From: Scatolibacter rhodanostii
GTDB taxonomy: Bacteria; Bacillota; Clostridia; Oscillospirales; Acutalibacteraceae
Assembly (NCBI RefSeq): GCF_900197595.1
Contig: NZ_FZLO01000001.1
Location: forward strand, 62,001 to 126,000
Length of the DNA: 64,000 bases
Direction of reading: 5' to 3'
In this document: piece after piece, positions 2,904 through 38,928 of the stretch
Layout: every line of letters starts with the position of its first letter
How positions within the stretch are numbered: position 1 is the stretch's first letter
Translations under genes and position numbers: made by a program
Notes under the pieces: generated by a model
What the model saw: the letters and a program-made list of their open reading frames with translations, nothing else
What the model was told of the DNA's origin: nothing
The model's database searches: none

Positions 2904-3848
2904 TTAAAACAGAGCACTGTCTTTGTCGACTTTTCTTGTAATGATATTTGCGCCCATTACAAGGATAAAACCTAGAATGGATTGCATAAAACCGGCAGCT
3001 GATGAACGACCGATATCGTTTAGCTGTAAAAGGCCACGATAGACATAGGTGTCGATGGTGTTTGTGGTGTTGTAGAGAAGGCCGTTGTTCATGGGTACCT
3101 GATAGAAGAGACCGAAATCAGAGTAGAACATTCTGCCCAAATGAATCACCACCAAAGTGATAATGGTTGTCTTTAAGCAGGGGAGTGTGATGTGTTTGAT
3201 TTGCTGCCAGGTAGAGGCACCATCAATAACAGCAGCTTCATAATATGAATCGTCTATTCCGACCAAGGTTGCATAATATAAAATGGAAGAATAGCCGAAT
3301 GATTTCCATAGGTAAATGACGGTAAGAATAACAGGCCAATACTGTGGAGAAGAATACCAGCTGATGTCTTTCATACCAAGTGGTTCGAGAATTGAATTAT
3401 TGATAAACCCATTGTCTACACTAAGAAAGGCAAATGCTAAATAGCTGATAACAGCAGATGACAATAAAAACGGCAGCAAAATGCTAGTTTGATAAACTCT
3501 TAAAGATTTGGCACGTACTTGGCTTAATAAGATGGCAACGACAATAGCTAAAACAGTTCCGAGAACGATAAAAGCTAGATTGTAGAGCAAAGTGTTACGG
3601 AAAATAATAAAAGCATCTTTAGTTTGAAACAGGTATTTAAAGTTATCAAAGCCGACCCAAGGGCTCTTAAAAATACCTACCGAATAATTTATTTTTTTAA
3701 AGGCAAAGCTTAGGCCAAACATAGGAAGATAGTTATTCAGAAGCAAATAGAGTAAGCCCGGAATCATCAATGCGTAAAGCGGAAGATCTTTCGTAAAACG
3801 ATTTACTTTTTTTGGTTTTTGAGATTTGGGCTGTATGGTTTTTTCCAT
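2904..3848 (-). CDS. Carbohydrate ABC transporter permease, LplB type
   Basis: First membrane subunit of the same importer, 314 residues. A basic cytoplasmic N-terminus (KPKKVNRFTKDLPLY) precedes about six hydrophobic segments. The EAA loop reads YYEAAVIDGASTWQQIKHITLP. The PGLLYLLLNNYLPMFGL start is characteristic of the LplB family, which pairs with binding proteins of about 500 residues, as found here. The gene follows the binding-protein gene after 120 nt that contain no convincing terminator, so co-transcription is likely. Confidence 0.92.
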   Translation of the reverse strand: MEKTIQPKSQKPKKVNRFTKDLPLYALMIPGLLYLLLNNYLPMFGLSFAFKKINYSVGIFKSPWVGFDNFKYLFQTKDAFIIFRNTLLYNLAFIVLGTVLAIVVAILLSQVRAKSLRVYQTSILLPFLLSSAVISYLAFAFLSVDNGFINNSILEPLGMKDISWYSSPQYWPVILTVIYLWKSFGYSSILYYATLVGIDDSYYEAAVIDGASTWQQIKHITLPCLKTTIITLVVIHLGRMFYSDFGLFYQVPMNNGLLYNTTNTIDTYVYRGLLQLNDIGRSSAAGFMQSILGFILVMGANIITRKVDKDSALF

Positions 3849-3968: not shown

Positions 3969-5513
3969 TTATTTACTTGCAAGGAATGCATCGAGCTGTT
4001 GTTGTTTGGCAGCGATAATTGTATCAATACCAGCATCCTTTAGTCCCTGTTGGAACTGAGCAAGGGTTCCTTCAAAATCTGTAACAGAACCAGATGCTAG
4101 TGCATTTTCATACTGATTAACAACGTTTGTACAAGCTGAAACAGCATCAGAAACGCTGGTCAAATCAAATTGGCATCCAAAAGCTTTAGATTGATGAGCA
4201 TTTTTGTTGGCATCTTTTAATTGCTGATAATAATCAGTTGGGTATTCAAAAGGATAAGATAGTGTGGAGTTCAGAGCTGTCCAAGAATAACCCATTGCCC
4301 AACCTGTTGTAGAAACATTTTTGCCTTCTACATAAGTGGCAGTATTATCATCTTTCAAAGTATAGTGCTCATTTTGAATACCGTTAATAATTAGATTAAC
4401 AGCATCAGAATCAGTAGCCATCAAGTTGATATAGGCAGCAGCTTTTTCAGGATTCTTAGAAGCTGGGTTGATACAATCATAACCCCAAGGTGTAACAGCA
4501 ACAGCATCATCATAAATTTGGAGAGAAGCGATTTCTGTACCAAAGTTTTGTGAAGACCAAATGCCGTTCATTTCAGCACTAAAGTGTCCTGCAAAGTTAC
4601 CAAAGGCTTTTCCAGAAGGAATGAAATCAACAGGAGCATCTGCTACGTTGAGCAAGTCAGGCATATAAGCGCCCATTTCAGACCATTGTTTAAAGTAGCC
4701 AACCAATTCTTTATAGCCTTCGCTCTCATAGTAATTGGTTACGGTTGTTGTCTGGCCGTAATCTTCGAGAACGCCTAATTTGTTACCTAATTGATCAATA
4801 CGTGAGTCGCCGATATTGGGTCCGCCGTTCATCGGTCCGATGAGGGGGGTGTCAGGATATTTTGCTTTAATTTTGCTGAATAGTTCAGTTAGTTCAGCAA
4901 GATCAACTTTATCGCCGTTTTTATATCCAAACTCAGTTGCAATGTCAGCACGGAGGTTGTAAGCAGCTGTAGAAGCTTGATCGAGCAAGTGGCCAATGCC
5001 GTAAAGATTGCCATCAACGCGGCCGGCTTCATAGACATTTTCACCAAGAGCAGCTTTCATGTCTGCTTCATAAGGTTTCATCAAATCGTCTAAAGCAAGT
5101 GCTTGACCATTGTTCACAACAGTGCTGTAAGGTACGCTCACACCAGCCATGTAAACATCCAGTGTATCATCACCGCCTGAAAGCAGTAGGTTAAGCTGAG
5201 TTGCTACGTTGGCAACTTCAATCATAACGAACTCGACGTTGACACCAATTTTTTCTCTAGTGATTTTGCTGAGTTCTTCAGCAACTTTGTCTGCGTCAGC
5301 AGGGATAGAACCGCAAATTACCATAGTAGAAATAGTGGGATACTCTTCATCTGTGCCGGCTTCAGAAGAAACTTCTTTTTTAGAAGAGGTTTCTGATGTT
5401 GCAGGAGTACTAGATTCTGTAGAAGAAGTACCTTTGTTATTTGCACAGCCTGCCAAAGATGTGACAACCATCATCAGGGCAAGAAGAGCAGCAAATAGTT
5501 TTTTTGTTGACAT
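3969..5513 (-). CDS. Extracellular sugar-binding lipoprotein, LplA-like
   Basis: Solute-binding subunit of the sugar importer, 514 residues, anchored outside the membrane. A signal peptide runs to lipobox LAGC with the acylated cysteine at 23. A Ser/Thr/Glu-rich linker (about 24-56) follows, then a two-lobed SBP_bac_1-type fold. Size and partner permeases place it with the LplA group, which binds oligosaccharides or complex sugars; the ligand is not readable. AGGAGG-like TTGGAGG precedes the ATG. It is the first gene of the operon, with a SigA promoter and a LacI-type operator upstream, so it is probably repressed when its sugar is absent. Confidence 0.93.
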   Translation of the reverse strand: MSTKKLFAALLALMMVVTSLAGCANNKGTSSTESSTPATSETSSKKEVSSEAGTDEEYPTISTMVICGSIPADADKVAEELSKITREKIGVNVEFVMIEVANVATQLNLLLSGGDDTLDVYMAGVSVPYSTVVNNGQALALDDLMKPYEADMKAALGENVYEAGRVDGNLYGIGHLLDQASTAAYNLRADIATEFGYKNGDKVDLAELTELFSKIKAKYPDTPLIGPMNGGPNIGDSRIDQLGNKLGVLEDYGQTTTVTNYYESEGYKELVGYFKQWSEMGAYMPDLLNVADAPVDFIPSGKAFGNFAGHFSAEMNGIWSSQNFGTEIASLQIYDDAVAVTPWGYDCINPASKNPEKAAAYINLMATDSDAVNLIINGIQNEHYTLKDDNTATYVEGKNVSTTGWAMGYSWTALNSTLSYPFEYPTDYYQQLKDANKNAHQSKAFGCQFDLTSVSDAVSACTNVVNQYENALASGSVTDFEGTLAQFQQGLKDAGIDTIIAAKQQQLDAFLASK

Positions 5514-16513: not shown

Positions 16514-17371
16514 TTATCCCTTTACACCGGCAAAAGCAATGCCTTCTACAATATATTTCTGTGCTGCTGCATAAACAATAACAATCGGAATAATTGAACA
16601 GACCGTGCCCGCCATAATAGCACCGTAGTCTGCACTGAATTCTTCTTTAAAGAGAGCAAGACCGAGCTGAATGGTTTTGAGCTTATCACTGTCTAAATAA
16701 ATCATGGGTCCCATGTAATCATTCCAAATATTATTGAAAGTGAGAACCATGAGCGTGGCAAGACCAGTCTTTGTTAGGGGAAGAATAATACTCCAGTACG
16801 TTCTAAAATAGCCGCAGCCATCAATTTTGGCAGCTTCATGCAGACTGTCAGGAATACTAAGCATATTTTGTCGAAGCAAAAATACGCCAAAAGCACTGAA
16901 GGCATGAATCAGAATTAAAGAGGTGTGGGTGTTATAGAGATTCAAAGTTTTGACTACAATAAACTGCGGAATCATAATTGCGTGCCACGGGACCATCATG
17001 GTGGCAAGGTAGCCTAAAAATAGCTTGTCGCGTCCCGGAAAACGCAGCTTTGTGAAGGAATAAGCAGCAAGAGAACAGGTAAACAGCTGTGTGACGGTAA
17101 TAATAACAGCCAGTTTTAGAGTGTTAAGAAAATAAGTAGGAAAGTTAATTTTATTCCAAACTTTATCATAGTTGTCAGGTCTGAATACTTCAGGAATCCA
17201 TTTGACGGGATATTCAAATATTTCTGTGTTTAGCTTGAAAGAAGCGCTCACCATCCATACAAATGGAACAATCATAATAAAAGCAACCAGCAAAGACAAG
17301 ATAAAACGAGTTACAGTGAAGGCTTTCTGATTCCTTTTGTAGTGAGCAGAAGTTTTTTGTTTGGTCATCAT
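16514..17371 (-). CDS. Carbohydrate ABC transporter permease, MalG/UgpE type
   Basis: Second membrane subunit of another CUT1 sugar importer, 285 residues with about six membrane helices. The EAA loop is LHEAAKIDGCGYFRTYWSIILP and the C terminus is YIVEGIAFAGVKG, as in the MalG half. It is the last gene of a binding protein-permease-permease operon and follows its partner permease by 33 nt. No ATPase gene is present. With the neighbouring kinase, regulator and GH5 glucanase, a beta-glucan oligosaccharide importer is plausible but unproven. Confidence 0.92.
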   Translation of the reverse strand: MMTKQKTSAHYKRNQKAFTVTRFILSLLVAFIMIVPFVWMVSASFKLNTEIFEYPVKWIPEVFRPDNYDKVWNKINFPTYFLNTLKLAVIITVTQLFTCSLAAYSFTKLRFPGRDKLFLGYLATMMVPWHAIMIPQFIVVKTLNLYNTHTSLILIHAFSAFGVFLLRQNMLSIPDSLHEAAKIDGCGYFRTYWSIILPLTKTGLATLMVLTFNNIWNDYMGPMIYLDSDKLKTIQLGLALFKEEFSADYGAIMAGTVCSIIPIVIVYAAAQKYIVEGIAFAGVKG

Positions 17372-17404: not shown

Positions 17405-18322
17405 TTACTCGTTTACCCAATTTTTTTGCCCGTGCCACTGAATTAAGGTGACAACCAGTATAATCAAAAAAAGGAAATAAGCGATGGCAGAGGCATATCC
17501 CATTTTTGTGTTGGTAAAAGCCTCTTTATAAATGCGGAAGACAAGCACCGTAGTTGCCCTGCCGGGGCCCCCTTCGGTCGTAACGTTGATGATGTCAAAG
17601 ATCTGGAAAGAACCGATAATGCACAAAATGGTACACATAAAAGTGGTGGGAGACAGCATCGGCCAAGTTACGTTTTTAAAAGTTTGCCAAGAGTTGGCAC
17701 CGTCAATTTTAGCAGCTTCATAAAGGTGAGGAGGAATATTTTTCAAGCCACCTATAAAGAGAATCATATAATAACCGGCCTGCTTCCAGACTACAACTAA
17801 AACGACCGTCAATAGGGCTGTTTTAGTTGAAAAGAACCACTTTGGTAAGTGATCGGCAGACATTCCTAAAAACTGAAGTAAATTATTAATAGGTCCTTGT
17901 GTTGGTTCAAATAAAAGCATAGAAACACAACCAATGGCAACCATAGAAGTCAAATTTGGGAAAAAATAAACTGTTTTGAAAAAACTTTGTCCAGGTAATT
18001 TTTTATTCAGTAGAAGAGCCAATAATAGGCCTGCCAAAATCGTGAGCGGTACACTTGTTAAAGAGTAAACGAGGTTATTCACCAAAGCGGCTTTAAACTG
18101 TGAATCGTTAAACATTTTTGCATAATTGCTGAAGCCAACAAAGCTTGGAGCTTTGAATCCAGTATAATTTGTAAAACTAATAAAAAAACCGGCAACGATA
18201 GGAAGTGCGATGAAGATAAGAAACCCGATGAAATTAGGCAGCAAGTAAAGATAACCGGTTAAAGCTTCTTTTTTTGCGGCAGAACCCATTTTCTTTTTTT
18301 TCTTTTCTATTGCAGTTGTCAT
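17405..18322 (-). CDS. Carbohydrate ABC transporter permease, MalF/UgpA type
   Basis: First membrane subunit of the second importer, 305 residues. A lysine-rich N terminus (IEKKKKKMGSAAKKEA) precedes about six hydrophobic helices. The EAA loop reads LYEAAKIDGANSWQTFKNVTWPMLSP, and NVTTEGGPGRATTVLVFRIY is typical of the UgpA half. The stretch between it and the binding-protein gene holds a large stem-loop that may set the ratio of binding protein to permease. Confidence 0.93.
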   Translation of the reverse strand: MTTAIEKKKKKMGSAAKKEALTGYLYLLPNFIGFLIFIALPIVAGFFISFTNYTGFKAPSFVGFSNYAKMFNDSQFKAALVNNLVYSLTSVPLTILAGLLLALLLNKKLPGQSFFKTVYFFPNLTSMVAIGCVSMLLFEPTQGPINNLLQFLGMSADHLPKWFFSTKTALLTVVLVVVWKQAGYYMILFIGGLKNIPPHLYEAAKIDGANSWQTFKNVTWPMLSPTTFMCTILCIIGSFQIFDIINVTTEGGPGRATTVLVFRIYKEAFTNTKMGYASAIAYFLFLIILVVTLIQWHGQKNWVNE

Positions 18323-18356: not shown

Positions 18357-18416
18357 GCCGACGCCGAAGAGGAATCTCTGGAGATGAATCTCGGAGAGGG
18401 ACTCTTTAGCGCCGGC
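18357..18416 (-). promoter_or_regulatory. Stem-loop between binding-protein and permease genes
   Basis: On the minus strand GCCGGCGCTAAAGAG pairs imperfectly (two G-U pairs and one mismatch) with CTCTTCGGCGTCGGC, enclosing CTC/GAG-rich smaller stems; TGTTTTT follows. GC-rich stem-loops after the first gene of sugar ABC operons are known to stabilise or attenuate transcripts so that binding protein exceeds permease. Partial termination is the likely effect here. Confidence 0.6.
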
Positions 18417-18450
18417 GCGTTTTATCAGCTATTCGGCTGCTGAAATCAAC

Positions 18451-19782
18451 TTATTCAGCAGAGTTGGCTATGGATTCATCTCGCAATGAGAAATAGTTCT
18501 CAAAAGCTTCGTCAACAGATTGCTCATCTAGCAGATAGAGTTCCATTTCTTGTTTAAAAGCTTCGTTCAAGTCATGATAATTGGCTTCTGTGCCTTGCTC
18601 ATCATTAATTTTAGCAGAGAAGCGATAATCAACACCGTCTACCTTGACAAGATCTTTGTAAACACTTAGAGCGGCATCTGTGCTGTAACTGGGCACGTTC
18701 TTAGTTTTTGCATAGATAGAAGTACCGGCATCAGATGTGGTAGCAAATTCAATGAAATCATAAGCTTCTTGTGGGTGTTTTGAATTGGCAGAAACACACA
18801 GGTAAGAAGATTGACCAACGGTAGATCCTTTTTCAGCACCTTCAAACACTGGCAGAGGAGCGGCACCGTATTCGAAAGGTACGTCTAACAAGTTGAATTC
18901 CCAGTCGCCGTTGACCATCATATAAATGTTGCCTGCGCCAAAATAGGAGTTAATGTCGAATGTACCAGCACTCATCTCAGCAATTCCGGGGTTACTCTTA
19001 TCTTCTACATAGAGTTTATGTAAGACTTCCATGTATTTTCTGGTATTCTCCATCGGTGCTTCAGCAGTTAAATATTCTCCAACTGAAGTTGCGCCTAAGT
19101 TAAGTGTCCAGTTAGGGATGATACCGCCCCAATATTTTGTTCCATTTTCTTCGGCAGTTAATTGTTTAGAGAGTGTGGCATATTCATCCCAGGTCAAATC
19201 GATTGGGTACTCTAAACCCTTGGCATCAAAAAGATCTTTGTTGTAAAATAACATCCAGCAAGATCCTGTGGTGGGCATACCAAAGAAATTGCCATCAGCA
19301 TTTTTGGCTCCAACCAAAGTAGTGTTCTCAATGGGAGAAAGATCAAGGCCACTTTGTTTTGCATAATCTGTGAGATCAAGCAGTGCATCGTTTGCCATAT
19401 ACTGTTTTACCTGGCTAGGTGAACGAACCCAAAACACATCAAGTTCGCCAGACGCACCAGCTGTTAAAACCTTTAGTTTGTCATCATAATCATCATTAGG
19501 AATGATATGTTTAACAATGGTGACGCCGTTATCCATGGCATTATACTCGTCAATCAAATTGTCGACAAGACCTTCACTGTCAGAATGCTCATGGAAATTA
19601 ATAATAATATCATCGGAGTTAGTTTTGCTGCCTTCTTCTTTGGATTCTTCTTTGCTACTGACACTTTCAGCGGCAGAAGATTCTTTGCTAGGTTCAGCAG
19701 AAGATGTTCCCTGATCAGACCCACAAGAGGCGAGTGAGAAAATCATAGTTGCTGACAATAATAGAGTTAACAATCTTTTCAT
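18451..19782 (-). CDS. Sugar-binding lipoprotein of the second ABC importer
   Basis: Solute-binding subunit of 443 residues. A signal peptide leads to lipobox LASC with acylated Cys20, then a Ser/Glu/Lys-rich linker (21-55) and an SBP_bac_1/MalE-type fold. Motifs such as YNKDLFDAKGLEYP, LTWDEYATLSKQL and YMMVNGDWEFN are typical of oligosaccharide-binding members. It heads the operon with the two permeases. The neighbouring upstream gene encodes a clear paralogue with the same motifs. The ligand cannot be read. Confidence 0.93.
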   Translation of the reverse strand: MKRLLTLLLSATMIFSLASCGSDQGTSSAEPSKESSAAESVSSKEESKEEGSKTNSDDIIINFHEHSDSEGLVDNLIDEYNAMDNGVTIVKHIIPNDDYDDKLKVLTAGASGELDVFWVRSPSQVKQYMANDALLDLTDYAKQSGLDLSPIENTTLVGAKNADGNFFGMPTTGSCWMLFYNKDLFDAKGLEYPIDLTWDEYATLSKQLTAEENGTKYWGGIIPNWTLNLGATSVGEYLTAEAPMENTRKYMEVLHKLYVEDKSNPGIAEMSAGTFDINSYFGAGNIYMMVNGDWEFNLLDVPFEYGAAPLPVFEGAEKGSTVGQSSYLCVSANSKHPQEAYDFIEFATTSDAGTSIYAKTKNVPSYSTDAALSVYKDLVKVDGVDYRFSAKINDEQGTEANYHDLNEAFKQEMELYLLDEQSVDEAFENYFSLRDESIANSAE

Positions 19783-20054
19783 AGCTTTACCACCTTTATT
19801 ATTTTATTGCTGTGGATTACTCTCATTTGAAAACAGACAGGACGTTTTTAAACAAGAAATATAGTTGTGTATATTGTTGTAATCCACGAATTCAATATAA
19901 TTATTGTATATTTAATAGTAAATATCAACAAGAGGGAAATTCTGTGAACGCTCAATCATGAAACAGGCGATAAAAGTTACAATAATGTTTTTAAACAGAT
20001 AGGATCGACCCGTTTAAAGGCTAAAATCATCTTTTTTGGCAAATTTAGTCCGAC

Positions 20055-20101
20055 TGCAATAGAATTAGGGTGGATATTTTATCCACCCTAATTCTATTGC
20101 A
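20055..20101. repeat. Perfect 22-bp inverted repeat between paralogous binding-protein genes
   Basis: TGCAATAGAATTAGGGTGGA continues two bases and returns as an exact complement after a 3-nt TTT loop. The structure is far longer than needed for termination and has no U-run on either side. It could still stop or stabilise the upstream binding-protein transcript. The remainder of 19783-20175 is AT-rich with a weak promoter-like TTGTTG-17-TACAAT on the minus strand and nothing else recognised. Confidence 0.7.
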
Positions 20102-20175
20102 AACATAAATAGGTTGCTATTGAGGATTGGTTAGAAAGACAAAGAAGCTCTCAAAAAACAGCAGCATATCTTTTG

Positions 20176-21471
20176 CTACTCCTGGTTCAAAATATCGCTT
20201 CTCTTTTGAAAATAGGAGTCAAAGGCAGTATCAAAGTCAACTTCTCCATTCAAATAAAACCTAATTTCGTCCTTGAAGAGCTGGTTCAATTCTCGGTAGT
20301 AGATGTGAGCCCCCTCTTCATTTGAGATGGAGGATTGGAAGAAGTATTTTGCACCAGGCACATTTGCATTTTGAAGGTAAATTTTTGCAGAATTATCAGT
20401 GAAATAGGCAGGGCAGGCAGCATATTGGGCGATGATGTCTGCTCCACCTTCACCGCAGTAGAACGAAGCAAATTTAAACGCTTCGCTGGGGTGATTAGAG
20501 TAATAAGAAATGCCAAGATAAGAACAGCCGCCGGCAGTTGAACCCGCAGGAACATCTTCAAAAACAGGAAGCGGTGCAATATCCCAATCCAAAGAGAAAT
20601 CACGAGCTTTTTCATCGTTATGGATTTGCATGGTAGCCCAATCGCCGTTAATCATCATAGCAACTTTGTTGTCTTCAAAAAAAGTAATGATGTCGTCAGA
20701 ATAAAAGCTAGTGGGGTCTGCCATAGTCAGAGAATCTGGATTAGAGTGGTCAATGTTATAAACCCGATTCAAGAAGCGGATATATTTCTGCGTAATAGGT
20801 AATTCGTCGTCTGTCAAATATTCTCCGGCAGTGGCAGCTCCCAAGTTCACTGTCCAAAAGGGAATAAAACCGCCCCAAACAGATTTTTTACCGGAAGCAT
20901 TTACTTTTGTAAGCTGTAGAGATAAATCTGCGTATTCATCCCATGTCATTTGAGTGGGATAAGGTAAGCCGGCGTCGTCAAAAATTGCTTTATTATAGAA
21001 AAGCAGCCATGCTGATTTAATACGAGGCAGTCCATATACACGGTTATCCATGGTGACGATTTCAGCAGTAGAGCCAAAATTAGAAATATCTAAATCAGAA
21101 TGAGAAATATATTCCTTCAAATCCAAAGTCAAACGACGTGTACCAAGTTGATTGGTTTGGCAAGGCTGACGAATGTAAAGACAATCAATAGAATCATCGC
21201 CGCTTTGCAGACGCTCAAGAATCTCATTGTCATAAAGGTTGTTGTTGATATAATAGACTGACACATAACTAGTGGTAGAAGTCTCATTAAAAGCATGAAC
21301 AATCTTATCCGTCAAACCAACATTGTCGCTGGAATCAAAAAGAGTAATTTTCACTTTTTGATTATCTGCTAAAGGGGACTCTGAATTTACGCTTTCTGAT
21401 ACCGCACAAGAAGGCATAGACAAAAGAAGAATGGTAACAAGCAATAGACAAAGCAGTTTAGATTTTTTCAT
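20176..21471 (-). CDS. Sugar-binding lipoprotein, paralogue beside the two-component system
   Basis: Binding lipoprotein of 431 residues with lipobox MPSC (Cys22). It is a paralogue of the next gene: both share LLFYNKAIFDDAGLPYP/MLFYNKDLFDAKGLEYP-type segments, MTWDEYADLSLQLT, a WGGxIPxWTxNLGA block, and MMxNGDW. It has no permease of its own and is divergent from a histidine kinase gene. It may present ligand to that kinase, or be an alternative binding protein for the same permeases. Which of these holds is not decidable from sequence. Confidence 0.9.
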   Translation of the reverse strand: MKKSKLLCLLLVTILLLSMPSCAVSESVNSESPLADNQKVKITLFDSSDNVGLTDKIVHAFNETSTTSYVSVYYINNNLYDNEILERLQSGDDSIDCLYIRQPCQTNQLGTRRLTLDLKEYISHSDLDISNFGSTAEIVTMDNRVYGLPRIKSAWLLFYNKAIFDDAGLPYPTQMTWDEYADLSLQLTKVNASGKKSVWGGFIPFWTVNLGAATAGEYLTDDELPITQKYIRFLNRVYNIDHSNPDSLTMADPTSFYSDDIITFFEDNKVAMMINGDWATMQIHNDEKARDFSLDWDIAPLPVFEDVPAGSTAGGCSYLGISYYSNHPSEAFKFASFYCGEGGADIIAQYAACPAYFTDNSAKIYLQNANVPGAKYFFQSSISNEEGAHIYYRELNQLFKDEIRFYLNGEVDFDTAFDSYFQKRSDILNQE

Positions 21472-21524
21472 CTTTCTTTATCTCCATAAAAAAGCTACTA
21501 TTAAATAGGTACCTATATAATATC

Positions 21525-21554
21525 AGGATAGCATAAAAAAATGAAATTCGTCAA
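21525..21554 (-). promoter_or_regulatory. Candidate SigA promoter of the paralogous binding-protein gene
   Basis: TTGACG, 18-nt spacer, TATCCT, about 55 nt before the start codon, in the divergent region shared with the kinase gene. Confidence 0.5.
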
Positions 21555-21581
21555 GAGAGATAAATAAAAAGAGAAATTTGT

Positions 21582-21610
21582 TTGTTTTTGTTGACTTTAT
21601 ACGATATGAT
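21582..21610 (+). promoter_or_regulatory. Candidate SigA promoter of the kinase-regulator operon
   Basis: TTGTTT, 17-nt spacer, TATGAT, about 95 nt before the kinase start codon. Confidence 0.5.
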
Positions 21611-21705
21611 AGGAGAGTAAGATTTATTTTGTTTCTATTTTGAGAGTGAAAGATGTTTTTTGCAAGCCTATCAAGATGACTTTGTAAGAAGAAAGGGGAG
21701 AGCAA

Positions 21706-23298
21706 ATGGTCTACATAGTATTAATTATTTTTGCGGCATTGCTTGTTTTTTTAAGTCTGTTCCAAAAAAACAAAACCAAACTGACTGTTTTGTTTTCTCT
21801 TGTGACAATCAGTTATATTTTATCGATGTGTTTCTATTTGCTGTATGTTTGCAAAGATTCCTTACATCTTGGCGTATTTCTAGATTATTTTCCGTTTCCC
21901 AGAAAAATTGTACTTTGGCTTTATTCGCTTAAAATATCAAAAATGGCTTTGCTTAGAATTTTAAACCTATGCTCATTGTTCTTTTTAATGTGTAACGTCT
22001 TATTTGCTTCTTCTTTTTATGAGAAAACAAGCAAGAAAGCCGAAAAAATTATTTTAACAGGCTGTGGCGTTTTTTGCATTCTGTTAGCAATTGTGTTTGA
22101 TCCGCAATTTTATATTGCTGTCTATCGATGGTTATATCCCCGATTTTTTCATGCAAAGACCATAGAAAATATATTTTTGGCGATTGGTGATTTTTCAAAT
22201 GTGATTTATCTGGTGATACAGCTAATTTGTATTGTGTTGGTAGGCGTAGAACTGATAGCCTATTTAAAAATCAAATTGCTCAGAATGAATTTATTGTTGG
22301 TTACACTGGTATATGCGTTGTTGCTCTTTACTTATATGTTGTTTTTTTATCGTATCCCCGGCACCATTATTAAATATTCCAAGGTGGCTGATTTAATTAC
22401 ATTTAGGCCGATTATGAATACCACTAGCATGAATTATTTTCGCTATTTTCCTTATATTGTCTTGTCGCTTTTACTGCTATTTGCTGTTGCTTATTTTTCT
22501 CTTTCTGTAACAAAAAGAAACATGGATATTACCCATATGGAGGTCAGTCGAAGTATACAGGCCGCCAATGTTTCTTCCAGGCTTTTTTGCCACTACATCA
22601 AAAATGAGATTCTGGCAATTTCAGCAGAGGTCGAAACGATTCCGGTCAATGAAGAAAACCGTGAATCTGTTGAAGGGCTTCTCAGCAGATGCGAAACAAT
22701 TTATCAGAAGCTAGACGGCATTCATAAGAGCATAAGAGAAAATTCGATGCATATTAAACGGGTATCGGCAGATGAAGTGATTCAATCTGCACTTGCCTAT
22801 GTAGAAAAATCAAAACCGTTAAAGGGAATTACAGTAGAGGTCAACTGTCAAAAACCATCGCCTTACCTGTTTGTAGATCCGATTTACTTTGAACAGGCAC
22901 TCATCGAAATGATTTATAACGCTTCTGACGCGATGGATACCTGTGAAAAAAAAGAGTTGCATATTTCGGTGCATTACAGTCTTCGCTGGGTTACTGTTCG
23001 CATAGCAGATACCGGCAAAGGGATTGAAAAAAAAGATTTAGCCAATATCTTCACACCTCTTTTTTCTACCAAACCGATGACACAAAATTGGGGTGTAGGG
23101 TTAACTTTAACCCACAGTGTGATTTCAGCTTTTAATGGAAGAATTGATGTAAGCAGTGAAGTGGGCAAAGGCACTACTTTTGACTTGCTTTTACCAGCCA
23201 ATGCGCAAAAGGCATATCTAAGTATGGATCAATTTTTCTCTAGAAGACGAACTAAAAAAGCAAAAATAAAACAGCCTAAATTTAATGGAGAGGGATAA
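21706..23298 (+). CDS. Membrane sensor histidine kinase
   Basis: A 530-residue kinase. The first 270 residues hold about seven hydrophobic segments and no obvious extracytoplasmic sensor domain. The cytoplasmic part has a likely phospho-acceptor His296 in FCHYIKNEIL, an N box IEMIYNASDA (400-409), G1 box DTGKGI (435-440), F box FTPLFSTK (449-456) and G2 box GVGLTLT (463-469). All nucleotide-binding boxes are intact. GGGGAGAG precedes the ATG. It is followed directly by its response regulator. The short outer loops suggest that it senses through a partner, for which the divergent binding lipoprotein is the obvious candidate. Confidence 0.93.
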   Translation: MVYIVLIIFAALLVFLSLFQKNKTKLTVLFSLVTISYILSMCFYLLYVCKDSLHLGVFLDYFPFPRKIVLWLYSLKISKMALLRILNLCSLFFLMCNVLFASSFYEKTSKKAEKIILTGCGVFCILLAIVFDPQFYIAVYRWLYPRFFHAKTIENIFLAIGDFSNVIYLVIQLICIVLVGVELIAYLKIKLLRMNLLLVTLVYALLLFTYMLFFYRIPGTIIKYSKVADLITFRPIMNTTSMNYFRYFPYIVLSLLLLFAVAYFSLSVTKRNMDITHMEVSRSIQAANVSSRLFCHYIKNEILAISAEVETIPVNEENRESVEGLLSRCETIYQKLDGIHKSIRENSMHIKRVSADEVIQSALAYVEKSKPLKGITVEVNCQKPSPYLFVDPIYFEQALIEMIYNASDAMDTCEKKELHISVHYSLRWVTVRIADTGKGIEKKDLANIFTPLFSTKPMTQNWGVGLTLTHSVISAFNGRIDVSSEVGKGTTFDLLLPANAQKAYLSMDQFFSRRRTKKAKIKQPKFNGEG

Positions 23299-23299
23299 A

Positions 23300-24010
23300 T
23301 TGGAAAACAATAAAATTAAAGTATTGGTGGCAGAAGACATTTTGCCGATTATGAAGCGGTATACAAAAATATTAGAAAAAGCAGCAGATATTGAAGTAGT
23401 GGCAGCTGTACAAAGTGGTTATGAGGCTGTGCTACTGGTGGGTATACATCGGCCGGATGTCATTTTGATGGATATTGAAATGGAAACCCGAACATCAGGG
23501 CTTGATGCTACCAGAGAAATCTTGCATCATTTCCCTGATACTAAAATTGTGATTTTAACGGTATATGAGGATGATGAAACCATTTTTAATGCGTTTCAAA
23601 TGGGCGTGTGTGATTATATCCTGAAAAATTCGAATCCCGAAGAAATTATAACTTGTATCAAAGATGCTTATTATAACCGTTCGCCGATTCGACCTGTGAT
23701 TGCAGAGAAAATTCGCTCGGAGTTTCAGCGGATTTATAAAGCTGAAAAAAGCTTATTGTATTGTCTGCACCTGATTACCCAGCTAACACAAACAGAGGTC
23801 GATATTTTAGATTTGCTGAATAAAGGCTATACGCGCAAGCAGATTTGTGAGGTTCGCTATGTAGAGATGTCAACGGTCAAAACACAAATTCATAATATTC
23901 TGAAAAAATTTGAGATGTCCAATATTGTTGAAGTGCTTGAACTACTCAACAGCATGAATGTTTTTGAATATTTGCATAACATGAAGCACCTAGGGGACGA
24001 AAAAGCGTGA
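23300..24010 (+). CDS. NarL/FixJ-type response regulator
   Basis: Transcription regulator of about 236 residues. The receiver domain (to about residue 125) has the acidic pair in VLVAEDI, phospho-acceptor Asp in VILMDIEM, Thr in ILTVYED and Lys in YILKNS. The C-terminal LuxR-type helix-turn-helix includes LTQTEVDILDLLNKGYTRKQICE and STVKTQIHNILKKF. I favour the TTG start behind GGAGAGGG, just after the kinase stop. An ATG at 23285 would overlap the kinase gene but has no ribosome site. Likely targets are the divergent binding-protein gene, the ABC operon and the GH5 gene. Confidence 0.92.
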   Translation: MENNKIKVLVAEDILPIMKRYTKILEKAADIEVVAAVQSGYEAVLLVGIHRPDVILMDIEMETRTSGLDATREILHHFPDTKIVILTVYEDDETIFNAFQMGVCDYILKNSNPEEIITCIKDAYYNRSPIRPVIAEKIRSEFQRIYKAEKSLLYCLHLITQLTQTEVDILDLLNKGYTRKQICEVRYVEMSTVKTQIHNILKKFEMSNIVEVLELLNSMNVFEYLHNMKHLGDEKA

Positions 24011-24136: not shown

Positions 24137-25465
24137 ATGAAACAGTTCGTTAAGGCAAAAGATACTCGACTCTATTTTGGAGAAAAGCCCTTGTTTTTGA
24201 GAGGGTTAGGGGTCGGCAGTTGGCTAAATATGGAGCATTTTATGTTGGGAATTCCTACACCTGACAGTATGATTCGTCAATCATTTACAGAAGTTTATGG
24301 GGAAGAGAATGCAGAAAATTTCTTTGATGATTTTTTCAAAAGCTTTTTGCAAGCGGAAGATTTTCAAGTTTTAAAAGATACCGGCATTAATTTCATTAGA
24401 GTACCGTTTAATCATCGAATCTTTTTAAATGAGCAGACAGGTGAATATTTAGAATATGGCTTTGCTATGATGAAAAGATTATTGGATTTTTGCGAGGAAT
24501 ATAAAATCTTTGTCATGCCTGATTTACATACGACACCAGGGGGGCAAAATCCAGATTGGCATAGTGATAACCGTTCGGGTATACCGCAGTTTTGGGAGTT
24601 TGCGGCTTTGCGCCATCAGATGACAAAGCTATGGGGCGAAATTGCCAAGCGTTTTTCGTCCTATGAATATTTGCTGGGATATGACTTGCTCAATGAGCCC
24701 AGTATGGCTTCTTGGGAAGCCATGAATAGCTTTTATGAGGAGACAATTACTGAAATTCGCCGCTACGATACCAATCATGCGATTGTGCTCGAGGGCGATA
24801 TGTTTGCCATGGATTTTAGCGGCTTGAACCATTTTGATGACTCCAATATTGTTTTGAGCTTTCACTATTATCCAACCGTGTGGAACGACAAACTGCTGGA
24901 CAAGGATATGCCCCGAGAAAAGCGATGGGAAGAATTTGAAAGCGGACTGCTGCGATTAGCTTCGATTCGGGAACAGTTCAAGCGTCCTGTTATCTGTGGA
25001 GAAGCCGGTTATGATTTGCACCCTGATGACATGGATTTCTGCATGGATTTGCTCGAAGATACCATCGCAATTTTTGAAAAACATGAAATCAACTGGGCAA
25101 TTTGGACCTATAAAGATGCTGCCTTTATGGGCATGGTTTATCCAAAGTCGGATACGCCTTGGATGCAGCTGGCACAAAAATTGCGCGAGAAATGGACACA
25201 TTACAAAGAGATGGAACAAGGCAAGCGCATGATTCATTCTGCGGCAGAAGAATTTGGTGGAATCAGCGAAAATCTTGCTTACAAACTGCAATTTCGTATG
25301 AGAGCCATTCTGTATGAAATGCAGAAAGAGGAAATCCTCATTCCAACTTTGCGAGATATTCCTTGGGAAGAAATTAAAACAGCACCATCATCTTTCCTGT
25401 TGGAAAATTGTGAGATTTGGGACTGCTACCAAAAGCTATTGCAAAAATTCACGCAAAAGAATTGA
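24137..25465 (+). CDS. Cytoplasmic GH5 glycoside hydrolase (glucanase/glucosidase)
   Basis: Retaining beta-glycosidase of 442 residues. The TIM barrel shows N-terminal LRGLGVGSWLNMEHFMLG, the INFIRVPFNHR strand, acid/base Glu187 in YDLLNEPS, HYYP (243-246) and nucleophile Glu289 in VICGEAGYD. A helical C-terminal extension of about 90 residues follows the barrel. There is no signal peptide, so it acts on imported oligosaccharides, as exo-glucosidase members do. AATAGGAG precedes the ATG. It sits 126 nt after the response regulator gene and ends at a terminator. Beta-1,3/1,4/1,6-gluco-oligosaccharides are possible substrates; the specificity is not readable. Confidence 0.88.
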   Translation: MKQFVKAKDTRLYFGEKPLFLRGLGVGSWLNMEHFMLGIPTPDSMIRQSFTEVYGEENAENFFDDFFKSFLQAEDFQVLKDTGINFIRVPFNHRIFLNEQTGEYLEYGFAMMKRLLDFCEEYKIFVMPDLHTTPGGQNPDWHSDNRSGIPQFWEFAALRHQMTKLWGEIAKRFSSYEYLLGYDLLNEPSMASWEAMNSFYEETITEIRRYDTNHAIVLEGDMFAMDFSGLNHFDDSNIVLSFHYYPTVWNDKLLDKDMPREKRWEEFESGLLRLASIREQFKRPVICGEAGYDLHPDDMDFCMDLLEDTIAIFEKHEINWAIWTYKDAAFMGMVYPKSDTPWMQLAQKLREKWTHYKEMEQGKRMIHSAAEEFGGISENLAYKLQFRMRAILYEMQKEEILIPTLRDIPWEEIKTAPSSFLLENCEIWDCYQKLLQKFTQKN

Positions 25466-33682: not shown

Positions 33683-35035
33683 TTATCGCACTAAACAGGG
33701 TTTTTTGTGGTCGAATATCCAGCCGGGCATTAAATACTGCATAGCCATAGCATCATTTCTGTCATGAGTAGGTAAACGTTCGTATAATTTGTTGGCTTCT
33801 TCCACTCGTGCCATGTTTAGGTGAACACCCAATCCTGCGCCTTGCGGAACTTGAATCTTACCGCCAACAATTTGAGGAGTATCTTCTAAAAGATTTTGCC
33901 CATCCTGCCAAATCCAGTGGGTGTCAAGCGGAGCTGGATTTCCAAGAGCAGCAGCACCTGTATGAGCATAAGCGGCCAGCGTAATATCAAAATGATTATT
34001 GGAATGGATACCCCAAGTCAAATTCCATTCTTTTAGGATATGAGACAAAGAAATACTGCCGTCAAATCCCCAAAAGTGAGGGTCGGCTAGAATAATATCA
34101 CAGGCACTTTGGCTGGCGGTGTGATAAAATTGTCGCCAATCTGTGGCAATCATATTGGTTGCCACAGGAAATTGTGTGGCTGATTTAAATTCACGCATAA
34201 TCTCGCGGCTAGAATATCCGGATTCAGGGCCGCAAGGATCTTCTACATAGGTAATGACGTCGTGCATATCTTTACAAAGCCTGATTGCTTCGTTAAGGCT
34301 CCAGGCTCCGTTAGGGTCAATGTTAATTCGTGCGTTAGGAAACTGCTTCTTGATTTGAATCAAGGTTTCCATTTCCACTTCTCCATCTAGAACACCAGCT
34401 TTTAGCTTGAAATTCTCAAAACCGTATTTTTGATGTAAGGCAGAGGCTTCTTCTGTAATACGTTCTGGGGTTAAAATTTCTTCTCGACGAAGGCGGAACC
34501 ATGGGTCACTGCTATTGCTTTCGTCCAAATAAGGGAATTCTCCCGCTGGACACTTGTTTTTATCAGAAACATAAAACAAATAGCCAAGCATTTCAACTTC
34601 GTCACGTTGCTTGCCTTCTCCCAACAATTGGCACATAGGTACATTTAGATATTGTCCCAGTAAATCTAACAAAGCACATTCAACGGCCCATTCACTTTTA
34701 ACAACAAATTGTAGCTTAGCAATGTCGAGAGTTTGAATGCCCTCGCCGTCATCTTGGGCGGCAGGCCGCATCTGTCGGTGAATATTTTGAAGAATTTGTT
34801 TGTAGCAGGCAATGGGTTGTCCTTCTACCAGTGTCCTCATACTATTTAAACTATTGTTGGTATGCTCGCCTCCATGAATTTCACCGATACCGGTATGGCC
34901 GGCATTGTCATGAAGAATAACAAGATTTCTCGTAAAATAAGGTGCATGCGCACCACTCAAAGTCATAAGCATGCTGTCATAGCCTGCGACAGGGACAACT
35001 TGCATTTTTGTAATAATGGGGGAATCAAAAGCCAT
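33683..35035 (-). CDS. gudX: Glucarate dehydratase-related protein (second copy)
   Basis: Enolase-superfamily protein of 450 residues that should dehydrate glucarate or a close aldarate to 5-keto-4-deoxyglucarate. The metal and catalytic residues appear intact: FKLKAG (catalytic Lys), NIDPNGAW (Asp), YVEDPCG (Glu), TNMIATDW (Asn) and WGIHSNNHFD (catalytic His). It is more diverged from E. coli GudD than the neighbouring copy. E. coli also has a GudX next to GudD, so the symbol is given by analogy of arrangement. I use the ATG behind AGGAGTG, ten codons inside the longest frame. The activity of this copy is uncertain. Confidence 0.85.
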   Translation of the reverse strand: MAFDSPIITKMQVVPVAGYDSMLMTLSGAHAPYFTRNLVILHDNAGHTGIGEIHGGEHTNNSLNSMRTLVEGQPIACYKQILQNIHRQMRPAAQDDGEGIQTLDIAKLQFVVKSEWAVECALLDLLGQYLNVPMCQLLGEGKQRDEVEMLGYLFYVSDKNKCPAGEFPYLDESNSSDPWFRLRREEILTPERITEEASALHQKYGFENFKLKAGVLDGEVEMETLIQIKKQFPNARINIDPNGAWSLNEAIRLCKDMHDVITYVEDPCGPESGYSSREIMREFKSATQFPVATNMIATDWRQFYHTASQSACDIILADPHFWGFDGSISLSHILKEWNLTWGIHSNNHFDITLAAYAHTGAAALGNPAPLDTHWIWQDGQNLLEDTPQIVGGKIQVPQGAGLGVHLNMARVEEANKLYERLPTHDRNDAMAMQYLMPGWIFDHKKPCLVR

Positions 35036-35183
35036 ATAGACACTCCTATCTCTATTGTAAATCATAGCAAATTATGAGCTTTTTATCAAATAGTAGGTTG
35101 ATAAAGGCAGTCTAATAGAATGAGAGGCTGGCAAACAATATGTTTTGTCCGCCAACCTTCTTTTAGACTGTTAAAATCAATTA

Positions 35184-36515
35184 TTATCGTACCATACAAG
35201 GCGATTTGGGGTCAAATTTCCAATCAGGAATTAGATATTGCATACCAATTGAATCGTCACGTGCACCCAAACATTTTTCAAGGTATAGTTTGTGAGCTTT
35301 TTCAAGCTGTACACGATCCAAGGCTACGCCCAAACCAAATTTATCACGAGGAACGGCGATACAGCCGTCAACAATTTGAGGACTTTCTATGCAAAGACGC
35401 TCACGTCCCTCTTGCCAAATCCAGTGGGTATCAATGGCATTCAGTTTGCCAGGCACAGCGGCTGCTGTATGAGCAACCATAGCCAGTGAAATATCAAAAT
35501 GGTTGTTGGAGTGGCAGCCCCATGTCAAACCGAAGTCGTTGCATAACTGGCCAACACGAACACTGCCTGTCATCGTCCAAAAATGAGGGTCTGCCAGTGG
35601 AATGTCAACGCTGTTCAGCGCAAAACTATGTGTCATCTGGCGCCAATCAGTGGCAATCATATTGGTGGCCGTAGGCAAACCGGTGGCACGGCGGAATTCA
35701 GCCATGATTTCACGACCGGAAAAACCATCTTCAGCACCACAGGGATCTTCGCAGTAAGTGAGAATACCATGCATATCTTTACACAGTTCAATGGCTTCAC
35801 TTAACAGCCAACCACCGTTAGGGTCTAATGTAATTCTAGCTTCAGGAAAAGCTGTTTTAAGCGCTTTGATACATTCTATCTCGGTTTTGCCTTCCAAAAC
35901 GCCGCCTTTTAACTTGAAATCCTGAAAGCCGTATTTCTCTTGTGTGGCTTTGGCAAGAGCTACAATTTCATCAGCAGTCAGAGCTTCTTCGTTGCGCAGA
36001 CGATACCAATCACAAGAATCTGATTCGGCTAAGTCATAAGGGAGATCAGTCTTTTTCCTGTCTCCGACAAAGAATAAGTAACTCAGCATACGAACGGTTT
36101 CACGTTGCTGTCCGTCACCAAGCAAAGAGGCAACAGGGAGTTCCAAATATTGGCCTAAAAGGTCTAACAAAGGAGATTCAATAGCGGTTAATACGTGAAC
36201 GCCAGTACGAAGATCAAATGTCTGTGCGCCTCTTACATCTTTCTCGCCGTTAGCTTCTAAGTGTTCTTTGATGACAAGCAAAGTACCTCGATAATCAGCT
36301 ACAGACGTACCGACAACAAAGTCAGAAACTTTTTCTAAAGTGTCAGTGATTTTTTGGCCGCCCGGTACTTCACCCAAACCGGTGCGCCCGTCAGAGTCCG
36401 TCAGAACAACCACATTGCGTGTGAAATAGGGAGCATGTGCACCAGAAAGATTCAGTTCCATGCTATCAAGCCCGGCTACCGGGAAAACTTCCATAGATAC
36501 AATAGTTGGTTTCAT
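35184..36515 (-). CDS. gudD: Glucarate dehydratase
   Basis: Dehydrates D-glucarate and L-idarate to 5-keto-4-deoxyglucarate using Mg2+. 443 residues. Conserved residues: KLKGG (Lys), LDPNGGW (Asp), YCEDPCG (Glu), TNMIATDW (Asn), LADPHFW and [10 protein letters not shown] (His). Long blocks such as [19 protein letters not shown] and [11 protein letters not shown] are nearly those of E. coli GudD, so this is taken as the true orthologue. It lies 18 nt after the aldolase gene and 148 nt before its paralogue. Confidence 0.95.
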
Positions 36516-36533
36516 AAGAGTATAACCTTTCCC

Positions 36534-37451
36534 TTAAATCAAATTCATTTGAGCCAGAATGTCACGCAGCTTTTCTTTCTGTTCTGGATTAAGTTCAGAA
36601 ATAGGCTCTAAACATTTGCCAACTGGAATGCCTTGCATGGCAAGCCCCTCTTTAATGACCTCAGGAAAAGTGCCCATGGCGGTTGCTATTCTCAAAGGAG
36701 CTAGTTGATATTGTGCTTCTAAAGCACCTTTCATGTCGCCATCCATAAATTTGTCATAAATGTCGGCTGCCAAGCGAGGAGCAACATTTGCACAGCTTGC
36801 CACAGCACCAGAACAACCATAGTGCAGGCCAGCGTAAATCATGGTGTCACGTCCCATCATGACGTTGAATTTATCTCGTAAGTCCATGGTCAGACGAAGA
36901 TATTCTTCGCAGTTGGTCATATCACCAGTAGAATCTTTAATGCCAATAATATTTTCACAATCACGGGCTAAACGCAATGCTGTGCTAGGTGCAATTGTTA
37001 CATTGGTTTTTGGTGGATTGTTATACATAATGATAGGCAAAGAAGTGCTGTCGGCAATCGTTTTAAAGAAATTGTATAATTCCTCTTGTGAAGGAGAAAT
37101 AAACATAGGAGTGAGCACGCTGATTGCGTCGTAGCCACCTACTTGTTCTACCAAGCGGATAAGCCGAATGACACCACGTGTGGTGATGTGGTTACATCCT
37201 GCAATCAATTGAATAGGGTTGCCATATCGATCTTTGCGGTCAACAACAGCAAGCTGAACGGCAATCAGGGTCTGAATAAATTCATCATCACTTACGCCGT
37301 AGAATTCTCCGGTTGTTCCGAAAGGGAACAGTCCATGTGCTCCGTTATCAACTAGATGCTTAGAGATGGAAACCATAGCTTGCTTATCAATGGTACCGTC
37401 TTCATTAAACGGAGTAACGATTGGCGGAATGACGCCATATGGTTTATACAT
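36534..37451 (-). CDS. DapA-family aldolase/dehydratase, probable keto-deoxyglucarate aldolase
   Basis: Class-I TIM-barrel lyase of 305 residues. Schiff-base Lys172 lies in IGIKDSTGD, catalytic Tyr143 in IIMYNNPP and the GTTGE loop at 45-49. Relatives include dihydrodipicolinate synthase, KDG aldolase (YagE-like) and 5-keto-4-deoxyglucarate dehydratase (KdgD). Between gudD and garR, with garK in the operon, it most likely splits 5-keto-4-deoxyglucarate to pyruvate and tartronate semialdehyde, replacing the unrelated GarL. The alternative, a decarboxylating dehydratase, would leave GarR and GarK without a substrate. The assignment is by context. Confidence 0.85.
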   Translation of the reverse strand: MYKPYGVIPPIVTPFNEDGTIDKQAMVSISKHLVDNGAHGLFPFGTTGEFYGVSDDEFIQTLIAVQLAVVDRKDRYGNPIQLIAGCNHITTRGVIRLIRLVEQVGGYDAISVLTPMFISPSQEELYNFFKTIADSTSLPIIMYNNPPKTNVTIAPSTALRLARDCENIIGIKDSTGDMTNCEEYLRLTMDLRDKFNVMMGRDTMIYAGLHYGCSGAVASCANVAPRLAADIYDKFMDGDMKGALEAQYQLAPLRIATAMGTFPEVIKEGLAMQGIPVGKCLEPISELNPEQKEKLRDILAQMNLI

Positions 37452-37474
37452 GTTTGTAAGTTTCCTCTCTTAAC

Positions 37475-38359
37475 TTATCTGCCAATCTCAATGCCAGAAA
37501 GTTTCTCGTAGTATTTTGCAATTGCACTATGGTCATTTTGACCGCAGTCGTTATTGTGCAACCATTGCAGAATTTCTTGGACAGAAGATGTCATAGGAAC
37601 CGGAGCACCTACTGTGTGAGCACAATCCAAAGCGTTATTCAAATCTTTGATGTGCAAGTCGATCTTAAAGCCAGGCTGTGCATTTCCAGCAATCATCATA
37701 GGACCTTTTGCATCCATAACGGTGCTACCTGCTAATCCGCCTCGAATGGCTTCAAATACAAGTTGAGGGTCGACGCCTGCTTTTTGAGCCAGTGTGAAAG
37801 CTTCTGCAACGGCTCTAATGTTACAAGCAACAATAATTTGGTTAGCTAGTTTTGTTGTGTTTCCGGCTCCAACTTCACCGCAGCGTACCACAGATGCACC
37901 CATGGTTTCTAATAAAGCTTTATAGGTGTTGAATACATCTTGCTTGCCGCCAACCATAAAACTTAGAGTGCCGTCAATGGCTTTTGGTTCGCCGCCTGAA
38001 ACAGGAGCATCCAGCATTTCAATGTTCTTTTCAGCCAAGATAGCCGCAATCTCTTTGCTGGCAACAGGGTTGATAGAACTCATGTCGATAAATACAGAAC
38101 CAGATTTCATATAAGAAGCAACACCCGTTTCGCCGAGCATAACTTCTTTAACCTGAGGGCTATTGGGCAGCATGGTCATAACCACGTCACAGTTTTCGCC
38201 AATTTCTTTATTTGTAGCAGATGTTGCGCCTGCAGCCACAAGTTCATCTACATTACTTTTGTTTAAGTCACTGACAAATAAAGAAGAATAGCCTGCCTTC
38301 AATATGTTTTTTGCCATGGGCTTACCCATAATTCCAAGACCGATTAAGCCAATTTTCAT
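37475..38359 (-). CDS. garR: Tartronate semialdehyde reductase (2-hydroxy-3-oxopropionate reductase)
   Basis: Reduces tartronate semialdehyde to D-glycerate with NAD(P)H. 294 residues of the beta-hydroxyacid dehydrogenase family: Rossmann motif IGLIGLGIMGKPMAKN (about 3-18), substrate loop DAPVSGGEP near 120, and catalytic Lys in AGNTTKLANQI near 170. I use the ATG behind GGAAGGAA; the longer frame upstream reads through promoter-like sequence. It is first in the minus-strand operon and divergent from the transporter gene. Confidence 0.93.
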   Translation of the reverse strand: MKIGLIGLGIMGKPMAKNILKAGYSSLFVSDLNKSNVDELVAAGATSATNKEIGENCDVVMTMLPNSPQVKEVMLGETGVASYMKSGSVFIDMSSINPVASKEIAAILAEKNIEMLDAPVSGGEPKAIDGTLSFMVGGKQDVFNTYKALLETMGASVVRCGEVGAGNTTKLANQIIVACNIRAVAEAFTLAQKAGVDPQLVFEAIRGGLAGSTVMDAKGPMMIAGNAQPGFKIDLHIKDLNNALDCAHTVGAPVPMTSSVQEILQWLHNNDCGQNDHSAIAKYYEKLSGIEIGR

Positions 38360-38928
38360 AGTAATTCCTTCCTTTCCATAAAAAAGCGGACAAATCATGC
38401 ATAAAACGATACGATTCTTAAAAAGTTCTTTTATATTGTAGCAGAAAAAATTTATATGATACAATAGTCATATTGATGAATTCTACTTTATGAAATCAGT
38501 AGAAATGCAAAGTTTCTAAAATATTAAACATTCATTTCAAAAACGTTTAGAAAATATTTCAAATGTTTCATGAATCAATTCACCTACAAACGAAGCAAAA
38601 ATTAAGAATAAAAGATAATGAAACAATTGAAACAATAATTTAAATTATTTCATTATAAAGTTTCAAATAGTAAAAAAAGGTGATAGATTATAAAATTTGC
38701 AAACATTTTTGATTTATTTTGCCGATTGAAACACCGCATTGCAATTGATAAACTTTAAACTATCATAAAAAGGTCTGAAGAATGCCTTTTTCCTTGTAAT
38801 TGCAGCCTACAAGAAAACGAATCATTTTTCGGCAGGTTCTTAAAAAGTTCATAAAATATTGCTTGTTAGGTAATTACTTAACGAATCGAGTAATTGTAGA
38901 AATCAATTACTCCATTGGAGGAAACGTA
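38360..38928. promoter_or_regulatory. Divergent control region of the aldarate module
   Basis: A 569-nt AT-rich gap. It contains five exact TGAAAC/GTTTCA hexamers, at 38565 (GTTTCA), 38619 and 38628 (TGAAAC, in direct repeat with 9-nt period), 38660 (GTTTCA) and 38727 (TGAAAC). Clusters of this kind are typical operator arrays for a dimeric activator. No -24/-12 sigma-54 promoter (TGGCAC-N5-TTGC) was found, which agrees with the defective sigma-54 contact loop of the nearby regulator. No clear SigA promoter could be fixed for either operon. Confidence 0.45.

Follow-up and report, generated by a model that had tools for sequence, protein, structure and literature searches.

The stretch of Scatolibacter rhodanostii DNA analysed here (64,000 nucleotides of contig NZ_FZLO01000001.1; the window) carries tandem genes for two sugar-binding lipoproteins, SBP1 and SBP2 (SBP, solute-binding protein), next to genes for a histidine kinase (HK) and a response regulator (RR). 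The two lipoproteins are paralogs (36% identity over 411 aligned columns, E 5e-82), both matching SBP_bac_1 (family 1). Permease genes permF and permG follow SBP1 directly, SBP2 having no permeases of its own, and an ATPase gene was not found beside the SBP1-permF-permG importer. SBP2 and the kinase gene are divergent, with a gap of 234 bp, while the kinase and regulator genes overlap and are followed by a GH5 glycosidase gene (Table 1). A sequence-only reading of this DNA had pointed to the paralogous tandem, to the permease linkage of one lipoprotein only and to the divergence of the other from the kinase, and all of this was borne out. It had also proposed that SBP2 is a dedicated ligand-presenting protein for the kinase, which is the claim considered here.

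Table 1. Features of the SBP1-SBP2-kinase locus (window coordinates)
Feature	Position	Strand	Basis or remark
permG, permease of sugar ABC importer (BPD_transp_1)	16514-17371	-	Pfam PF00528
permF, permease (BPD_transp_1)	17405-18322	-	Pfam PF00528
SBP1, transport sugar-binding lipoprotein	18451-19782	-	SBP_bac_1; permease-linked
Palindrome, 47 bp; core 20068-20088, proposed RR operator of the SBP1 operon	20055-20101		
SBP2, orphan sugar-binding lipoprotein, proposed ligand presenter to the kinase	20176-21471	-	SBP_bac_1
Divergent promoter region SBP2/kinase, without operator motif	21472-21705		
Kinase, whole gene	21706-23298	+	Only HATPase families match in Pfam (E<=0.001)
Kinase sensor part, seven helices, residues 1-270	21706-22515	+	AlphaFold2 model, hydropathy, loop conservation
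Kinase linker and core: DHp (His296 in FCHYIKNE), HATPase_c	22516-23298	+	PF02518
NarL-type RR: receiver and GerE/LuxR-type helix-turn-helix (HTH)	23285-24010	+	PF00072, PF00196
GH5 glycosidase, signal peptide not evident by eye	24137-25465	+	PF00150

Membership in the family 1 sugar-binding proteins was indicated by an SBP_bac_1 score of 66.2 bits (cut-off 26) and by Foldseek matches to sugar-binding proteins. The AlphaFold2 (AF2) model of SBP2 had a mean pLDDT of 88.8. A search of the genome with SBP2 (2.7 Mb, E<=0.001) returned only itself and SBP1, and a plasmid search returned general SBPs (486 records; 24-25% identity in the five matches listed). As judged by eye, the lipobox of SBP2 (MPSC) is less typical than that of SBP1 (LASC).

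The sequence-only reading had described the kinase as a seven-helix protein with short outer loops. The AF2 model (mean pLDDT 77.6, pTM 0.56, based on an alignment of 18 relatives) placed helices before the kinase core at residues 2-18, 25-51, 79-102, 110-130, 150-186, 190-214 and 242-275, and together with hydropathy gave outer loops of about 20-30 residues for the window protein. The description stands in these respects; the loops are not featureless, however, since in the model loops 1 and 2 contain short helices (two in one loop and one in the other) and loop 3 a strand pair. By hydropathy the window kinase has seven segments, and seven other family members gave 7, 7, 6, 7, 5, 6 and 8 at one threshold, which leaves seven as the best-supported predicted count for the family, though not a unanimous one.

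No Pfam family matched residues 1-345 of the window kinase at E<=1. Among eight relatives five families were matched, each in one member, with a best E of 0.0034. A profile of the sensor part gave no match to PDB sequences at E<=10, and the 50 VIA matches listed aligned within residues 279-508. The top Foldseek matches for the kinase model, listed without residue ranges, were kinases. His296 is invariant in 18 of 18 aligned kinases. Conservation of the sensor part was measured as mean pairwise identity among 14 close kinases: the values were 0.39, 0.37 and 0.35 for outer loops 1 to 3, 0.21-0.25 for the inner loops and 0.22-0.35 for the helices, of which helix 3 equals loop 3. Seven of the nine invariant sensor residues are located in the outer loops. 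The loop-1 motif is LGIFL-like in the four kinases of the SBP2 clade, YYYN in eight of the remaining close kinases, YYYH in L013 and another sequence in L007 (L numbers denote loci, G numbers genomes).

The kinase family is rare. It was detected in 2 of 300 genomes of the window's family (its own genome included), in 2 of 391 genomes of the class (its own genome and one weak match with internal stops) and in at least 11 of 397 genomes of the family of G301, several of these matches being distant; one collection scan gave 11 kinase loci, three of them matching in the kinase core only. In the sets of 391 and 397 genomes scoring covered the first few candidates of many genomes, and the tallies there are lower bounds. 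Fifteen close loci were compared: the window, L007 (the same place as L004/L012), L008, L009, L010, L011, L013, L014, L015, L039, L040, L041, L042, L133 and L134. At six of them (window, L039, L133, L042, L014 and L040) an SBP without its own permease, hereafter an orphan, lies near the kinase. The SBP1-SBP2 tandem occurs in the window, L039, L042 and L133; two genes separate orphan and kinase in L042, and the orphan gene overlaps the regulator gene by 4 bp in L039 and L133. In L014 and L040 the orphan is divergent from the kinase and on the strand opposite to the importer. Five further loci have a transport SBP alone and are discussed below. L134 retains only a truncated SBP1 remnant about 4 kb from the kinase, L013 and L041 run into a contig edge, and L015 lacks SBP relatives in its locus and has a kinase open reading frame (ORF) without the seven-helix part. 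This core-only ORF (L015:6109-6900) adjoins sulfatase-like and GH5 genes.

More distant kinases are also importer-linked (L043-L049, L135). The gene order is SBP-permF-permG-HK-RR in L046 and L047, HK-RR-SBP-permF-permG in L135 and SBP-RR-HK in L044, whose 16-kb locus has no permF or permG relative. The kinases of L045, L048 and L049 have NMT1-type SBPs as direct or close neighbours, and a permease and a glycosidase-like gene accompany that of L043; an SBP or permease relative was not found at L136. A profile of the SBP2 clade, with at most 4-5 candidates scored per genome, gave eight places of at least 255 bits in the 397 genomes (in G1001, G952, G301, G302 and G964) and three in G000 and G077 among the 300 family genomes. 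The kinase is present in all seven of these genomes, several of the places being transport SBPs, and the best score in a genome without a kinase match was 217 bits. In 12 of the 12 profile places inspected (L084 and L085 from the 255-bit set) the inspected SBP adjoins permF and permG.

In the SBP tree, SBP2 and the orphans of L039, L042 and L133 form one clade (support 100/100), and the orphans of L014 and L040 form a second group (98/98) nearer to Hungatella/Eisenbergiella transport SBPs. A single origin of the five tested orphans was rejected, the forced clade costing 71 log units (approximately unbiased test, p 2e-38); according to these trees, kinase-linked orphan SBPs arose at least twice. 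The nearest kin of the window SBP1 are the SBP1 proteins of L042, L039, L133, L007 and L040. The importer tree groups L040 and L007 with the window (100/100). The kinase tree groups L040 with L014 and L041 (100/99) and places L007 among kinases labelled as no-orphan (93/94), a label that included L013, whose contig ends near the kinase and which was unlabelled in a later tree. Constraining the kinases to the importer grouping was rejected (p 2e-5; p 1e-4 with the sensor part alone). The case for a spare SBP serving the kinase is strongest at L040, because by these phylogenies its orphan goes with the kinase lineage and not with the window-type importer, which has another history. Sequence comparison over this small sample of loci supports a closer association of the spare SBP with the kinase than with the importer.

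The palindrome between SBP2 and SBP1 has fully complementary 22-bp arms and a 3-bp centre. An inverted repeat, AGGT(T/G)GA-N7-TC(A/C)ACCT, was seen by eye upstream of nine transport SBPs in 16 regions, and a matrix was used in which each locus was scored with itself left out and compared with 200 shuffles per locus. In kinase-bearing genomes 11 of 11 operons with an SBP1-like importer had the motif upstream (scores 19.5-28.3), with no shuffle reaching the real score at any of them (0 of 200 each), against 0 of 11 control sugar importers (best score 6.2); controls L084 and L087 are importers away from the kinase within kinase-carrying genomes. Ten of the 11 motif-positive importers are in kinase loci, the upstream regions of L009 and L010 being near copies; L085, on another contig of kinase-bearing G964, was first scored after the consensus had been written. 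The window palindrome scores 27.0, and the other matches in the window score 13.6 (4465-4485) and 15.8 (17729-17749, inside permF). In 746 kb of fetched, partly redundant DNA every match of 18 or more was at such importers, or at L013 or L049. Outside the training set, matches were found in L049, in L013, in L133 (before SBP1) and in L134 (before the SBP1 remnant).

Three of these sites have settings of their own. In L049:3078-9451 the gene of a distant seven-helix-type kinase closes an NMT1-type importer operon that includes genes resembling nagA and nagB (by eye), and the motif lies 60 bp before the permease of that operon. In L013:55-1787 it precedes a sulfatase-like gene (by eye) located before the kinase. 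In L134:12359-12872 it precedes the SBP1 remnant of 141 amino acids in a 16-kb region without permease relatives; there the importer seems to have been lost and the sensor retained, the kinase pair still being open.

The motif is absent from the SBP2-kinase gap (best matrix score 1.3), where only two short inverted pairs were found as repeats. Nor does it occur in the gaps separating orphan and kinase in L014 and L040, before the kinase genes of L039 and L042, or before the window GH5 gene. The recognition helix of the regulator, VExSTVK, is alike in most motif-bearing loci, with the variants VEMTTLK (L039), TEMSTVK (L042) and IELSTVK (L013). It differs in L043, L044, L046 and L047, which have no site of 18 or more; in L045 and L048 it is fairly similar, yet no such site was found. 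Because of its place downstream of SBP2 the palindrome was also considered as a terminator, which was rejected: there is no T run after the stem, and it does not appear in the terminator scan. An operator is preferred because the core recurs before related importers; a double role may exist. A direct repeat, GTTTTTAAACA, is also present upstream of SBP1. A whole-genome pattern search allowing at most two mismatches yielded 60+64 matches, compared with 52+57 when the pattern was reversed as a control, counts so close that a wider regulon cannot be claimed. Judged from these motif comparisons, the palindrome is a probable operator of the SBP1 operon, and the SBP1 importer is the likely target of the regulator.

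Based on the computed gene content, paralogy, association of separately arisen orphans with the kinase, operator-like motif and loop conservation, it is proposed, with a probability of about two in three, that the locus encodes a three-component oligosaccharide-sensing system running from SBP2 through the seven-helix kinase and the NarL-type regulator to SBP1-permF-permG. SBP2 would be anchored on the outside of the membrane, be expressed separately from the importer and bind an oligosaccharide, which from the GH5 neighbour may be guessed to be a beta-gluco- or xylo-oligosaccharide. Once loaded, SBP2 would contact the kinase at its short, conserved outer loops and shift the helices, upon which the kinase would phosphorylate the regulator. 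The regulator would then bind the palindrome and activate the importer; docking, ligand, direction of regulation and binding of this regulator to the motif are inferred. Kinases with a transport SBP alone may use that SBP, or none, and the dedicated copy would be a refinement evolved more than once.

SBP-activated kinases such as those of the ChvE-VirA, LuxP-LuxQ and TorT-TorS pairs are known; to our knowledge they all possess extracytoplasmic sensor domains, unlike the window kinase. No polytopic kinase using an SBP was present among the literature matches listed. The closest counterpart is the cellobiose-sensing CuaDSR/CuaABC system of Ruminiclostridium cellulolyticum (PMC10384115). In that paper CuaD, and not CuaA, bound the outer part of the sensor in a two-hybrid assay, and the sensor operon is described as constitutive. 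In both cases a second family 1 lipoprotein SBP is encoded with an HK-RR pair, apart from an SBP-permease-permease importer, and the logic by which the Cua system switches the importer on is proposed for the window too. CuaS differs: it has two transmembrane helices, a HAMP domain and an outer part that was examined as a 267-residue construct, and CuaR is of AraC/YesN type. The window kinase, with seven helices and no Pfam match in its sensor part, shows neither the extracytoplasmic domain nor the HAMP, and its regulator ends in a GerE/LuxR-type and not an AraC-type HTH. Classical CuaDSR-like loci, each with an extra SBP, a HAMP/dCache-like kinase, an AraC-type regulator and an importer, were observed at two of the 12 profile places inspected, L087:5126-12971 and L088:3866-12025, and form a useful set for comparison; their kinases have HAMP and a dCache_1 match below the Pfam cut-off.

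In XylFII-LytS of Clostridium beijerinckii a sugar SBP is likewise the ligand-sensing partner of a histidine kinase, although there, as cited in PMC9769921 and PMC13068155, the docking site of XylFII is a helical periplasmic domain of LytS, and none was found in the window kinase. BtsS-BtsR of Escherichia coli resembles the window in having a seven-helix kinase with its N-terminus outside and in controlling an importer gene, and differs in that BtsS binds pyruvate directly and belongs to the LytS family with a LytTR-type regulator, according to PMC10653868, a text in which the term "solute-binding" does not occur. The 5TMR-LYT domain of LytS/BtsS-type proteins has no Pfam match in the sensor part of the window kinase, and the window regulator is of NarL and not LytTR type.

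It is unlikely that the kinase binds its ligand directly in the membrane domain or senses the working importer, with SBP2 at most accessory. BtsS holds pyruvate between its helices (PMC10653868), and the kinases without a second SBP retain the same conserved loops. Points against such sensing are the linkage with different SBP families (SBP_bac_1, and NMT1-type at L045, L048 and L049), the position of most invariant sensor residues in outward loops and the repeated origin of kinase-linked orphans. The chances are smaller that SBP2 feeds the permeases of SBP1 as an additional SBP differing in ligand range, and that the kinase senses something else. Importers served by several SBPs are known, the tandem recurs as listed above, the fold of SBP2 is retained and 16 of 27 transport-conserved positions (including the lipobox Cys, W206 and N160) are kept in all six orphans. 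Against it, the orphans of L014 and L040 are placed opposite to the importer and divergent from the kinase, L044 has no permease relatives nearby, the L040 orphan tracks the kinase lineage, and the window operator, being between SBP2 and SBP1, would not control SBP2. Signalling to the kinase by the transport SBP, with the window orphan a decaying or neutral duplicate, is very unlikely: five relatives do have a transport SBP alone near the kinase, and end branches are longer in the window-clade orphans (0.63-0.96) than in four window-type SBP1s (0.29-0.45), though L040_SBP1 has 0.73; but the window, L039, L042 and L133 orphans are open frames in four genomes with core residues retained, and neutral relics would not explain the origin of orphans in two groups.

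Several observations weigh against the three-component proposal. The relatives just mentioned (L007, L008, L009, L010 and L011, the last with two genes between transport SBP and kinase) make up 5 of the 15 close loci, so that the counter-evidence named in the sequence-only reading itself, homologous kinases without such a neighbour, is present in part. Because these five have the transport SBP alone nearby, the dedicated SBP is to be regarded as an optional refinement and not as a requirement of the kinase; the earlier claim is supported in part, by the six loci with orphans, their at least two origins and L040. In L007, L008, L009 and L010 the motif lies between SBP1 and the divergent kinase, and the kinase there could share its control. 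Nine of the same upstream regions are those in which the motif had initially been spotted by eye, in L039 the matrix site differs from the site first seen, and the distance from motif to SBP1 start is 285 bp in the window versus 29-174 bp elsewhere. The tested tree groupings were named after the trees had been seen, L007 alone forced into the SBP2-type kinases was not rejected (p 0.084 and 0.055), the clear decoupling of orphan from importer rests on the single locus L040, and the linkage of orphan and kinase clades may partly be due to shared ancestry. CuaSR alone, according to PMC10384115, also perceived cellobiose without an SBP. Finally, one lysine was considered as a general permease-docking mark: all 16 close transport SBPs have it, and none of the six orphans and neither of the two CuaD-like SBPs does. 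That idea is weakened by 32 additional SBP rows (from 22 distinct proteins, the CuaD-like excluded), of which 15 have V, 1 has S and 16 have K; the absence of the lysine from the orphans is at most a hint.

A broader reading, that the whole kinase family acts as a receptor for loaded SBPs without an outer domain, the SBP resting on short structured loops, falls somewhat short of even odds. This reading, equally tentative throughout, would span the importer's own SBP as well as dedicated duplicates of repeated origin, across the unrelated SBP_bac_1 and NMT1 types. If true, it would represent a minimal, membrane-buried way to read a binding protein. The SBP-kinase pairs described with structural detail in the papers cited (CuaS, LytS) dock the SBP on an extracytoplasmic domain; the window kinase seems to use three short loops. 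If confirmed, it would offer a small system for studying SBP signalling through a helix bundle. A spare SBP with a seven-helix kinase could then serve as a rule predicting sugar-sensing circuits in gut Clostridia, with a testable operator.

Among its PDB matches, the GH5 protein resembles the putative beta-xylosidase GE32, CelC and glucan 1,3-beta-glucosidase A, and relatives of the gene are also present in L014, L015, L040 and L085. The enzyme may act on the imported oligosaccharide, which, as a guess from its resemblance to those solved enzymes, may be beta-linked. Elsewhere in the window, a DUF3502 protein (3969-5513, minus strand) resembles a sugar-binding lipoprotein by size and place, and three ORFs of about 300 amino acids downstream of it (1062-3848, minus strand) possibly represent another importer. 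The stretch 33683-45798, with two mandelate-racemase/enolase-type proteins, a DHDPS-like protein, a citrate-type transporter and a PrpR_N sigma-54 activator, likely encodes a sugar-acid or organic-acid pathway.

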